64,000 bases of DNA from Bdellovibrionales bacterium RIFOXYC1_FULL_37_79 (GTDB lineage: Bacteria > Bdellovibrionota > Bacteriovoracia > Bacteriovoracales > Bacteriovoracaceae): assembly GCA_001770015.1 (NCBI GenBank), contig MEQB01000026.1:186001-250000 (forward strand), written 5' to 3'. The notes below the pieces were generated by a model. That model did not search any database. It was not told the origin of the DNA and saw only the letters and a list, made by a program, of their open reading frames with translations. Numbering within the stretch: the first letter of the stretch is position 1; the number at the start of each line of letters is the position of its first letter. Positions 56,106 through 60,005 of the stretch are shown here, piece by piece. The translations under genes and the position numbers were made by a program.

Positions 56106-56894
56106 ATGAAACTGATGTTTTTATTATTAGCCGGTTGGTGCGCCATCAATGCTTCCTTTACCCTGGCATTGACTCCAGAGGAAAAAGGCCTGGATATTGC
56201 CAGAAAAATGGAAAAGGCCAATGCCGGATTTATGGGCGAAGTTGCAGAAATGACCATGACCTTAATTGATGCCTACGGAACAGAAATCGTCAGGAAAATG
56301 GAAGGAAAAATAAAAGAAATAAGTGATGATGGTGACAAATCCATCATTACTTTTTTACAACCAAGCGATGTAAAGGGCACCAAGATGCTGACCTGGGGTC
56401 ATAAGACCGAAAACGACGATCAATGGCTTTATCTTCCATCCATGAAAAGAGTTAAAAGAATAAGCTCGAATTCCAAGACCTCTTCCTTTATGGGAAGTGA
56501 ATTCTCCTACGAAGACTTGGGAGGACAATCTGTCGAAAAATTCACCTACAAACACCTCCGCGATGAAAAATCCGAGCTTGGCAACGTATGGGTCATCGAA
56601 CGTTACCCGGTCAACGTTAAGGAAAGCGGCTACCTGAAACAAGTAATGTGGATACCTGAAAAATACCACGCCTCCTCCAAGGTTGAATACTATGACCGTA
56701 AGGGCACCCTGGTCAAAACCGCCGATTTTTTGGATTATCAATCATTTCCAGTGGCAGGAAAAAATATTTTTCGTCCTGCTAAAATTCATATGAAAAATGT
56801 GCAAACCAAAAAACAATCAATTTTTTCGTGGGACAAGCGTAAAATCGGAGAAAATTTACTAAACAATCATTTTTCCCAAGATAGCTTGAAGTAA
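56106..56894 (+). CDS. LolA-like outer-membrane lipoprotein-sorting protein
   Basis: The 262-residue protein has a signal peptide (MKLMFLLLAGWCAINASFTLA). The mature part fits the LolA-like family (PF17131 type) that accompanies RND/MMPL exporters: DGDKSIITFLQPSDVKGTKM, DQWLYLPSMKRVKRI, SFMGSEFSYEDLGG, and KVEYYDRKGTLVKT. It is expected to carry a lipid or lipoprotein across the periplasm. The barrel gene follows after 14 bases. Confidence 0.9.
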   Translation: MKLMFLLLAGWCAINASFTLALTPEEKGLDIARKMEKANAGFMGEVAEMTMTLIDAYGTEIVRKMEGKIKEISDDGDKSIITFLQPSDVKGTKMLTWGHKTENDDQWLYLPSMKRVKRISSNSKTSSFMGSEFSYEDLGGQSVEKFTYKHLRDEKSELGNVWVIERYPVNVKESGYLKQVMWIPEKYHASSKVEYYDRKGTLVKTADFLDYQSFPVAGKNIFRPAKIHMKNVQTKKQSIFSWDKRKIGENLLNNHFSQDSLK

Positions 56895-56908
56895 CCCCCC
56901 CTTTCCAT

Positions 56909-58210
56909 ATGAAGCAGCGGTTTGAGCGATTCATTTTTATCTACCTACTTGCCCATCTATGGTGCTTTAAAACTTTTGGTGAGTTTCAAGATTCAGGTGA
57001 ACTGCGCTTTGAAACCAGAAAATTCAAAGACGACGAAGTGGATCGCACCATCGATAATGCCACCGCCATTTATACCCGTGCCGAAATGAAGTACTCTAAG
57101 GAATCCTATAATGCCACCTTTAGAGGTTATGCGCTGGTGGATGGCAAAGATGAAACCAGGGACAATCTCACCATCGAGGATATGTTTTTTTCCTATTATT
57201 TAAAAGAAGATGAAAGCGCCTCCTTGTCGGCAGGATATAAAATCTTTAATTGGTCAGCGACCGAGGCATTTCATCCCGCCGATATTTTAAATAGTCAAAA
57301 CTATGATAGCAACATCGAATCCTTGGATAAAATTGGTGAATTAAACCTGGACACCTCCTTTAAGACCCCTTATGGGAATTTTTCGCTCCTGTACCTTCCT
57401 TACGCCCAGGCCCCAAGATACCCCAAACAACGCTCCCGCTTAGGGGCTTCGGTCAATTTATCAAGACCAGTATGGGTCACTAAAAAAGATGAAACCAATC
57501 TCCAAAACTGGCATCATCAAGGTGCCGTAAAATATTCCAATTCTATCGGTGCAGGTGATTTATCTTTACATGCCGTTTATCACCTCAACACCGTTAACCC
57601 CATCATCGGAAAACGCATTGTTTATGAAAATATTTTATTTTTCTCTCTCCCGGTGGGCATTGAATTTACGCCCTATTACTTCCGGGCATTGCAACTGGGA
57701 GGAACTTATCAATATGCACTAGACGGGGGATGGCTCATTAAAACCGAAGCTGCTTATCGGGATTTTTTGGATGATGAAGTGATCATCCAAACGATAAAAG
57801 GCAATCGTAGTCCGCAAGATCACGGCATAGTGGCGGTGGGCACCGAGTACGGATTTAGTATGAAAAATGGAGGTGAATCCAATATCGTCCTTGAATTTCA
57901 AACCCTGATGGGGCCTAATAAATTGGCCCGCAGTGAACTTTCCGTTTTTCAAAACGATGTAATGCTTGGTTACCGTCTGGCCTTAAACGATACCTTCGGA
58001 AAAGAATTTTTTGTCAGTTTAATCCGGGATATCGAACGTCAAAATGAGACCCTTTACAATTTTAACTATACTCAAAGACTCAACGATAATTGGAAAATCA
58101 AAACTGGTTTTAGAGTCTATGATGCTCCCAAAAAAGGAACCTATGCCACAGGTCTTGAGGCCTATCATAATGCCCATTATGTTTTCTTTAATCTTAGCCG
58201 ATTCTTTTAG
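56909..58210 (+). CDS. DUF1302-like outer-membrane beta-barrel protein
   Basis: The 433-residue protein has a short hydrophobic signal (FIFIYLLAHLWCFKTFG). The mature chain has many strand-like repeats (ESYNATFRGYALVDGKD, SASLSAGYKIFNWSATEAF, GGTYQYALDGGWLIKTEAAY) and ends HYVFFNLSRFF with terminal phenylalanine, a barrel signal. FNWSATEAFHPADILNSQNYD resembles the DUF1302 family, which pairs with LolA-like/DUF1329 and RND genes in other bacteria. It is the last gene of the operon that starts at 54296. Confidence 0.82.
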   Translation: MKQRFERFIFIYLLAHLWCFKTFGEFQDSGELRFETRKFKDDEVDRTIDNATAIYTRAEMKYSKESYNATFRGYALVDGKDETRDNLTIEDMFFSYYLKEDESASLSAGYKIFNWSATEAFHPADILNSQNYDSNIESLDKIGELNLDTSFKTPYGNFSLLYLPYAQAPRYPKQRSRLGASVNLSRPVWVTKKDETNLQNWHHQGAVKYSNSIGAGDLSLHAVYHLNTVNPIIGKRIVYENILFFSLPVGIEFTPYYFRALQLGGTYQYALDGGWLIKTEAAYRDFLDDEVIIQTIKGNRSPQDHGIVAVGTEYGFSMKNGGESNIVLEFQTLMGPNKLARSELSVFQNDVMLGYRLALNDTFGKEFFVSLIRDIERQNETLYNFNYTQRLNDNWKIKTGFRVYDAPKKGTYATGLEAYHNAHYVFFNLSRFF

Positions 58211-58212
58211 TC

Positions 58213-58231
58213 TGGTTATTTTTTATAACCA
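58213..58231 (+). terminator. Weak hairpin after the barrel gene
   Basis: TGGTTAT pairs with ATAACCA around TTTTT directly after the stop. There is no following T-tract, so termination would be weak. Confidence 0.35.
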
Positions 58232-58266
58232 TCATTCTGGTTTTAGGTTTAATATAATTCAAATTC

Positions 58267-58275
58267 TGCTACAAT
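58267..58275 (+). promoter_or_regulatory. Extended -10 promoter of mltB
   Basis: TGCTACAAT fits TGnTATAAT with one mismatch. The expected start, seven bases later at 58282, is exactly the first base of the long stem of the leader structure. A -35-like TTTAAT lies at 58248. Confidence 0.45.
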
Positions 58276-58281
58276 GGATTA

Positions 58282-58369
58282 ATCGGTAGTAGTTTTTTAA
58301 CACCAAGTTAAATTACTGGTGTTAGGCGACCATGTGGCCTGCAGTTTCTACGCAGGTTACACTACCGAT
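58282..58369 (+). ncRNA. Candidate structured 5' leader (three-way junction) of mltB
   Basis: P1 is a perfect nine-base helix, ATCGGTAGT (58282-58290) with ACTACCGAT (58361-58369). P2 is TAACACC (58298-58304) with GGTGTTA (58318-58324). P3 is GTGGCCTGC-like, 58334-58342 with 58352-58360, including two G-U pairs, and stacks directly on P1. The P3 loop is AGTTTCTAC and the P2-P3 joint is GGCGACCAT. It ends 28 bases before the mltB ATG. It matches no class I recognise. Confidence 0.5.
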
Positions 58370-58397
58370 CAAATTTAGCTTGGAATTTAATCCCTTA

Positions 58398-59366
58398 ATG
58401 AATTACTTATTTTACGTCTTATTTTTTTTCTCTTCGTTTGGCATCAGTGCCTCCACTTTTGATGATTGGAAGCTGGCGCTTAAAAAGACCTTGCTGGCCT
58501 CACAAATCAATCCAGCCACCATCGATATTTTTATAAAACATGCCAAATATGATCAAGTGGTCTACGATATTTATAATCTTCAACGCAAACCGCTTCCCTT
58601 ACCGCTTCAAAAATTCTTAAATCAATGGTTTCAAGCGGAAGATGTCAGCAAATCATGGATTGCCACCGAGGGGACTAGGTTATTAAAGGAACATAAAGAG
58701 CTCCTAAATAGAATCGAAAAAAAATACCAAGTGGATAAAACGGTGATTATCGCCCTTTGGGGCATTGAAAGTAAATATGGAAAAATGACCGGGAAATACC
58801 CGGTCCTTAATTCACTTTCCACCCTGGCCTATAATAGCCAACGCAAGGATTTCTACACTAATGAACTTATTCATGCCCTGAAGATCTTGCAAAATAATAA
58901 AATAAATCCTGAACAATTCCTGGGCTCATGGGCCGGTGCCATCGGACAATGCCAATTTATGCCTTCCAATTATTTTGTGTTTGGGGTGGATTTTGATAAC
59001 AATAATAAGGTTGATTTATTTTATTCACTGGCCGATATCTTTGCCTCCATTGCCAATTATTTAAGAAAAAGTCAGTGGAAATACAAACGTCCGGTCGGAC
59101 ACCTGGTAACCTTACCGGCCCAATTTAACCCGCACTACCTAAGTTATAAATCCAAGAATAATTTCTTTTGGAATAAGCAAAAGATCCGGGATCATTTCCA
59201 AAAAAAATTACCTGCACTGCGGGAAAAATCGCACATCATCACCTTGATCATGGAAGATCGTAATTACCTGGTGGTGTACAAAAATTTCGACGTTATTTTA
59301 AAATGGAATCGCTCCTATCTTTTTGGCCTAAAAATCATCCTCCTAAAAACGGCGCTGGAAGGATAA
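58398..59366 (+). CDS. mltB: Membrane-bound or secreted lytic murein transglycosylase B
   Basis: The 322-residue enzyme cuts peptidoglycan glycan strands with 1,6-anhydro product formation. I start it at 58398, where a signal peptide begins (MNYLFYVLFFFSSFGISAS); the upstream in-frame ATG at 58332 falls inside the leader structure. The catalytic glutamate is E124 in LWGIESKYG, followed by PVLNSLSTLAYNSQRKDF and GSWAGAIGQCQFMPSNY, all diagnostic of the MltB family. The signal lacks a lipobox, so it may be soluble in the periplasm. The methyltransferase gene follows after three bases. Confidence 0.94.
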   Translation: MNYLFYVLFFFSSFGISASTFDDWKLALKKTLLASQINPATIDIFIKHAKYDQVVYDIYNLQRKPLPLPLQKFLNQWFQAEDVSKSWIATEGTRLLKEHKELLNRIEKKYQVDKTVIIALWGIESKYGKMTGKYPVLNSLSTLAYNSQRKDFYTNELIHALKILQNNKINPEQFLGSWAGAIGQCQFMPSNYFVFGVDFDNNNKVDLFYSLADIFASIANYLRKSQWKYKRPVGHLVTLPAQFNPHYLSYKSKNNFFWNKQKIRDHFQKKLPALREKSHIITLIMEDRNYLVVYKNFDVILKWNRSYLFGLKIILLKTALEG

Positions 59367-59369
59367 ACG

Positions 59370-60005
59370 ATGAAACATCAATTTTTATTATTCCTGGTAA
59401 CACTGGATAATTGGTTTGATCATCTGATCGATTATTTTTTTGATAGAAAATTTCATCTGGATACTTTGACCAAGGTCAATTTCTCCCAACGTTTAATAGA
59501 AGTCCCAAATAGAATCAATGCCAAACAATACCAAGGCACCAGGTGGCGGGTCTTTAATCGCATCATGAAAAATCTGCCCATCCAATACCGTGATTATAAT
59601 TTTATTGATACCGGATCTGGCAAAGGGAAGGCCTTGATTTTGGCGTCTGGATTCAATTTTAAAGCAATTAAAGGTATTGAATTATTCAAACCCCTATATG
59701 ATATCTCCTGCCAAAACTTAAGAAAAATGAACCTAAATCATCGCATCCAAATTGAACATGGTGATGTTTTAAATTTCACCCCCCCCAAAGGCCCCAATCT
59801 TTATTACCTTTATAACCCTTTCAATGAAAATGTTTTAAAGGATTTTTTTACCAACCTTAAAAAGAACCAAACCTTGGGCAGCCGTGACGTGATTATCTAC
59901 CTTAATCCAAGATACCATTCAACACTTACCAAACTTGGATTCCAGTATCAGGTTTTGCTCAATAACCTCAATTACAACAAAGTGGTTTTAATTTATACCA
60001 TGTGA
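59370..60005 (+). CDS. Class I SAM-dependent methyltransferase
   Basis: The 211-residue protein has the SAM-binding motif YNFIDTGSGKGKALILAS (about 78-95), then an acidic strand end in IKGIELFKPLYDI, EHGDVLNFTPP, and YYLYNPFNE at the motif IV position. The acceptor is unknown; the NPF motif recalls amino- or protein-methylating types but does not decide it. It lies three bases after mltB, so the two are probably cotranscribed. No signal peptide. Confidence 0.85.
   Translation: MKHQFLLFLVTLDNWFDHLIDYFFDRKFHLDTLTKVNFSQRLIEVPNRINAKQYQGTRWRVFNRIMKNLPIQYRDYNFIDTGSGKGKALILASGFNFKAIKGIELFKPLYDISCQNLRKMNLNHRIQIEHGDVLNFTPPKGPNLYYLYNPFNENVLKDFFTNLKKNQTLGSRDVIIYLNPRYHSTLTKLGFQYQVLLNNLNYNKVVLIYTM

Follow-up and report, generated by a model that had tools for sequence, protein, structure and literature searches.

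The c-di-GMP riboswitch class folds as three helices around a junction. Bdellovibrio bacteriovorus carries a c-di-GMP riboswitch RNA, merRNA, behind which there is no conserved reading frame (PMC3627812). In the translational form of the corrinoid (cobalamin) riboswitch, a kissing loop between L5 and L13 connects a multi-helix domain to the expression platform and controls access to the ribosome binding site (RBS) (PMC10653944). Several narrower motifs are on record from a single survey (PMC11109978). The purS motif is an orphan candidate of Corynebacterium with a loop proposed to act as an anti-Shine–Dalgarno (anti-SD) that blocks translation; the dauA and ykoW motifs are orphan candidates, each a three-stem junction directly upstream of the start codon and linked to the SD; and the YjbJ motif of Streptococcus, about 30 nt 5′ of an SD, is a candidate structured leader whose gene carries a lytic transglycosylase annotation.

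The DNA analysed here is a 64,000-nucleotide window of the 4.36 Mb draft genome of Bdellovibrionales bacterium RIFOXYC1_FULL_37_79. A first-pass annotation had proposed an unassigned structured leader RNA upstream of an mltB-type gene in this window. That broad interpretation is supported up to the level of a conserved structured leader: no Rfam family matches it, an ortholog of the same fold is present in the one sequenced congener (Bdellovibrionales bacterium RIFOXYA1_FULL_36_14), helix P3 carries compensatory changes, and the sequence is under strong constraint. The leader is ordinary in kind and new in identity. The loop of its second helix, L2, is complementary to the RBS stretch of mltB, a feature absent from the first-pass annotation.

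The mltB Locus

The leader is located between a predicted outer-membrane-type gene, which ends at 58210, and the mltB-type open reading frame (Table 1). The protein scores 245.9 bits against TIGR02283 MltB_2, slightly under the cut-off of 248.45. Its start is assigned to the ATG at 58398. An N-terminal extension from the in-frame ATG at 58332, which lies within the leader, is rejected because the congener has a TGA directly after that ATG. The congener (77% identity) and a more distant family member, G022 (36%), also have the pair formed by mltB and the methyltransferase-like gene behind it, and this retention suggests an old operon. On the other side of the leader, the predicted outer-membrane gene (56909; 56884–56911) has no evident SD and has a run of seven C before its start.

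Table 1. Features of the mltB leader and its downstream genes (window coordinates).
Feature	Position	Strand	Sequence	Basis or remark
Extended −10	58267–58275	+	TGCTACAAT	Sequence; predicted start about 58282
P1, 5′ strand	58282–58290	+	ATCGGTAGT	Pairs with 58361–58369; identical in both species
P2, 5′ strand	58292–58304	+		Minimum free energy (MFE) fold and two-species pair count
L2 loop	58305–58317	+	AAGTTAAATTACT	Conserved core AGTTAAAT; 11/13 bases conserved
P2, 3′ strand	58318–58330	+		MFE fold and pair count; takes in most of the joint of the first-pass annotation
Joint P2/P3	58331–58333	+	CAT	Conserved within ACCATGTG
P3 hairpin	58334–58360	+		9 + 2 pairs, variable tetraloop; two compensatory pairs, one G-U/A-U change
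P1, 3′ strand	58361–58369	+	ACTACCGAT	Partner of 58282–58290
RBS stretch	58372–58384	+	AATTTAGCTTGGA	L2 partner; holds weak SD GGA 58382–58384
mltB-type lytic murein transglycosylase	58398–59366	+		Pfam SLT_2 E 3e-80; PDB 7qvd E 2e-46
SAM-dependent methyltransferase-like gene	59370–60005	+		Weak matches to SAM methyltransferases; 3 bases 3′ of mltB

Fold of the Leader

The MFE structure of the 88 nt from 58282 to 58369 is a three-way junction of −38.7 kcal/mol. None of 200 dinucleotide-preserving shuffles folds as well (z = −6.33), and the centroid structure is the same as the MFE structure. The orthologous leader of the congener has, as its own MFE, the same three-helix fold in the same place (z = −5.98). 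The three-way junction and the perfect nine-base helix that closes it, both claimed by the first-pass annotation, are thus present, and the details inside the junction differ from those described there. P2 was described as a seven-base hairpin and is longer, with up to 13 pairs and one U·C mismatch in each species. Of the nine bases of the proposed contact joint, GGCGACCAT, five are paired in the MFE of the window and a sixth in the congener, leaving only CAT free. There is no joint between P3 and P1; the free joints of the junction are short (A, CAT, and none). The P3 loop, AGTTTCTAC, had also been put forward as a conserved contact, but the congener has AGTTCTCAC at this place, and the loop that is conserved is L2.

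Two further pairings were tried and rejected. A kissing contact between L2 and L3, found by eye, has about 5 bp in the window and is lost in the congener, and an outer helix of GGATTAA with TTAATCC is not kept in the congener.

Conservation between the Two Species

The leader is identical at 73 of 88 positions between window and congener, versus 33 of 84 fourfold-degenerate sites of mltB. Despite the 15 differences, each species keeps 35 of the 36 pairs that make up the helices. When the same number of changes is placed at random in simulation, a mean of 29.6 pairs survives and 35 are reached with P of about 0.0009. Two pairs, both in P3, change from C-G to U-A (58338/58356 and 58342/58352). 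P2 trades its mismatch: where the window has U·C the congener has G-C, and the U·C of the congener corresponds to an A-U of the window. The compensatory changes in P1–P3 that the first-pass annotation had named as support are found in P3; P1 is invariant (18 of 18 positions) and, as it never varies, gives no covariation signal for or against. With an alignment of two rows, a pair-shuffle control (131 of 500) does not reach significance. The two species have the same bases throughout P1 and the joint, which is more than pairing alone would ask for.

Wherever a change on one side alone keeps a pair, it exchanges G-U and A-U as read on the + strand. The z-scores of both species also favour that strand (−6.33 on + versus −4.28 on − in the window; −5.98 versus −4.25 in the congener). 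The G-U preference together with the strand-biased stability points to a + strand RNA. The 5′ leader holds a structured domain conserved in two species with the same fold and place. From these comparisons the leader is apparently kept by selection as an RNA, and two sequences cannot prove covariation.

Promoter and Predicted Start

The extended −10 named by the first-pass annotation is present, and the congener keeps it as TGTTACAAT at an unchanged distance to P1. No good −35 for this box is found in the sequence. A perfect TATAAT at 58253–58258, 17 bases 5′ of the extended −10, is also kept in the congener; it possibly serves the same leader as another promoter box, with a start near 58265. 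The match between predicted start and helix edge had been called hard to explain by chance. A conservation edge does lie at 58282, with 3 of 6 discriminator bases (58276–58281) identical in the two species versus 18 of 18 in P1. The evidential weight of the match is nevertheless weak, because a −10 box locates the start to within about ±2 nt and the TATAAT offers an alternative start; the coincidence is suggestive and is not strong evidence.

Complementarity between L2 and the Ribosome Binding Site

The conserved single-stranded parts of the region are the L2 core and, 3′ of P1, TTTAGCTTGGAA, while the P3 loop and the remaining spacer have diverged between the two species. These two conserved parts are complementary. 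CCAAGTTAAATT (58303–58314), which comprises L2 sequence and the end of its stem, can form 12 bp with AATTTAGCTTGG (58372–58383). Ten contiguous pairs can form in either species; the remaining two, on the outside of the helix, are missing from the congener. When the columns of the spacer are shuffled jointly, a helix of 10 bp shared by both species arises in 3 of 20,000 trials, and in 8 of 3,000 when any segment of the leader is allowed as the partner. Between the two species the helix shows one A-U to G-U change and no compensatory change. The GGA within the RBS stretch is the best SD candidate of mltB, at −3.3 kcal/mol; the neighbouring genes at 56106 and 59370 have SD energies of −9.7 and −8.9.

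The pairing crosses P1 and would thus form a pseudoknot. Leaving aside the pseudoknot penalty, a duplex limited to the loop is calculated at −5 to −6 kcal/mol, while opening the inner pairs of L2 takes about 3. Nested refolds in which the L2–RBS helix takes the place of P1/P2 are about 9–10 kcal/mol worse, and the pseudoknot is therefore preferred to a simple refold. On these modelled energies the contact is plausible and, on energy alone, not compelling; a modest energy would be in keeping with a contact that can be switched by a signal. The particular contacts proposed in the first-pass annotation, at the joint and the P3 loop, are not supported; the conserved sites are L2 and the RBS stretch, which make the better candidate contact.

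Distribution

Rfam 15 (4227 families) gives no match at the gathering cut-off anywhere in the window, and none up to E = 5 within 58180–58480. A covariance model (R1), derived from these two closely related sequences and used under strict filters, was searched against 129 genomes of the family and 369 of the phylum; it finds only the two congeners, with no match to the leader in the 367 others. An order-level search covers the same 129 genomes and adds nothing. Diverged homologs could be missed owing to the closeness of the two sequences and the strict filters. BLAST over 59 genomes likewise finds the leader only in this genome and the congener. The leader is single copy, with no second copy per genome found by BLAST or the covariance model; the multiple copies of a repeated or mobile DNA element (REP, MITE, attC-like) are not seen. 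A scan of a public genome collection for the loop and joint pattern returns the congener and one chance match, which overlaps the end of an enzyme gene in Bacteroidota, and the pattern does not occur in viral contigs.

Leaders of mltB in related genomes had been suggested as a source of further examples. The leaders of 21 other MltB genes of the family (30–45% identity) were inspected and folded, and none has the leader fold. The closest of these genes is that of G022, whose mltB leader folds weakly. Because G022 has the gene pair without the leader, the leader looks younger than the pair or lost in G022. Within the genomes searched, these comparisons place the leader as genus-restricted.

Weaker covariance matches (E 0.004–0.05) are rejected as leaders and correspond to palindromic in-frame repeats in mnmE. 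This run of repeats, each about 24–27 bases and of SGPIGPDK or GPIEPL type, has a DNA core, GGTCCTATAGGACC, that is a perfect palindrome. For a conserved GTPase of tRNA modification such an insertion is unusual; it is located at L049 380–1900 (own genome, C25) and L050 371–1846 (congener) and also found in L031 and L032. Four of the five perfect copies of the core in the genome are in mnmE.

Proposed Translational Control and Its Alternatives

A conserved fold and a conserved complementarity of L2 to the RBS stretch are observed in the two species, and they suggest, with moderate confidence, a genus-restricted cis-regulatory leader in which initiation of mltB translation is controlled by pairing between L2 and the RBS and the junction serves as scaffold or sensor. 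Transcription would begin at or slightly 5′ of P1, the leader RNA probably being made from the predicted site, and P2, P3, and P1 would fold into a compact three-way junction. The 58372–58384 stretch with its weak SD would leave the polymerase next. The exposed L2 would then capture the RBS stretch with 8–10 (up to 12) bp, for which P2 would have to sit close to the base of P1. This pairing, if it occurs in vivo, would give a pseudoknot spanning P1, keep ribosomes from binding, and lower translation. A putative signal (metabolite, ion, protein, or other) would stabilise or loosen the junction or the L2–RBS contact and so set the output of MltB, probably along with that of the methyltransferase encoded behind it. 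Control by transcriptional attenuation is unlikely, since no terminator-like site, and hence no intrinsic terminator, is found in the leader.

How the signal is supplied divides the closest alternatives. A metabolite or ion riboswitch, in which a small molecule at the junction (the invariant P1 and ACCATGTG) shifts the L2–RBS contact, is possible though unlikely, and is a special case of translational control by L2–RBS pairing. The junction-proximal bases are conserved, the L2–RBS contact would provide an expression platform, and three-stem junctions close to the SD are on record among narrow orphan candidates (PMC11109978). Against this, the leader is a single copy at one gene in one genus, its short free joints leave little room for a pocket, and mltB is not an obvious gene for metabolite feedback. 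An extended version, in which the leader is a new genus-restricted riboswitch class, with the three-way junction as aptamer for a metabolite of the cell wall or of methyl transfer and a loop–RBS pseudoknot as the gate on transglycosylase translation, is improbable.

The very stable fold and the helix edge at the predicted start would also suit a passive 5′ stabiliser or insulator, a 5′-terminal structure that protects the mRNA from decay and does not switch. Stabilising stems at the 5′ terminus are exemplified by E. coli ompA. This explanation is unlikely, as it does not account for the conserved sequences of L2 and the RBS stretch, their complementarity, or the sequence invariance of P1.

That invariance, extending to the joint and not explained by pairing alone, is what a protein-binding leader would show, with a protein (possibly the operon partner of MltB itself or a global RNA-binding protein) recognising the junction or P2 and repressing translation. 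Long irregular helices are a common kind of protein site, and P2 is one. However, no recognised RNA-binding regulator is encoded by mltB or the genes next to it, and there is no second site in the genome, which makes such a leader doubtful. Binding of a protein and of a small molecule largely overlap with control by L2–RBS pairing, as ways of supplying its signal.

A DNA inverted repeat acting as operator, mobile element, or recombination site is highly improbable: the arms of P1 are an exact inverted repeat spaced by 70 bases, but the element is single copy, occupies the same place in both species, and contains a strand-specific G-U pattern and compensatory changes.

If translational control through L2 holds, the leader would place a lytic transglycosylase under direct, testable translational control, with the L2–RBS complementarity as a defined mechanism that can be disrupted and repaired. 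Little work has addressed how relatives of Bdellovibrio adjust the levels of their peptidoglycan-cutting enzymes through RNA, and a limited literature search found no such leader described there.

Comparison with Known Systems

The mltB leader resembles merRNA in being a structured RNA from the Bdellovibrio group and, like the c-di-GMP class, has three helices around a junction; it differs in the reading frame that follows it, and it matches no Rfam model. It shares with the corrinoid riboswitch a loop of a multi-helix domain that pairs, here by prediction, with the expression platform; it differs in having no Rfam cobalamin match, three helices, no RBS hairpin, and direct complementarity between loop and RBS. 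As with the YjbJ motif, it is a candidate structured leader of a lytic transglycosylase gene, although, compared by description, it belongs to another phylum and precedes a different enzyme family. The purS motif is similarly narrow, the mltB leader being genus-restricted with a loop as proposed anti-SD, and is set apart, by description, by its gene, phylum, and fold. The dauA and ykoW motifs are likewise three-stem junctions before a start codon and tied to the SD. In those motifs the SD is part of the junction or is overlapped by P1, whereas in the mltB leader the SD lies outside the junction and would be reached by L2.
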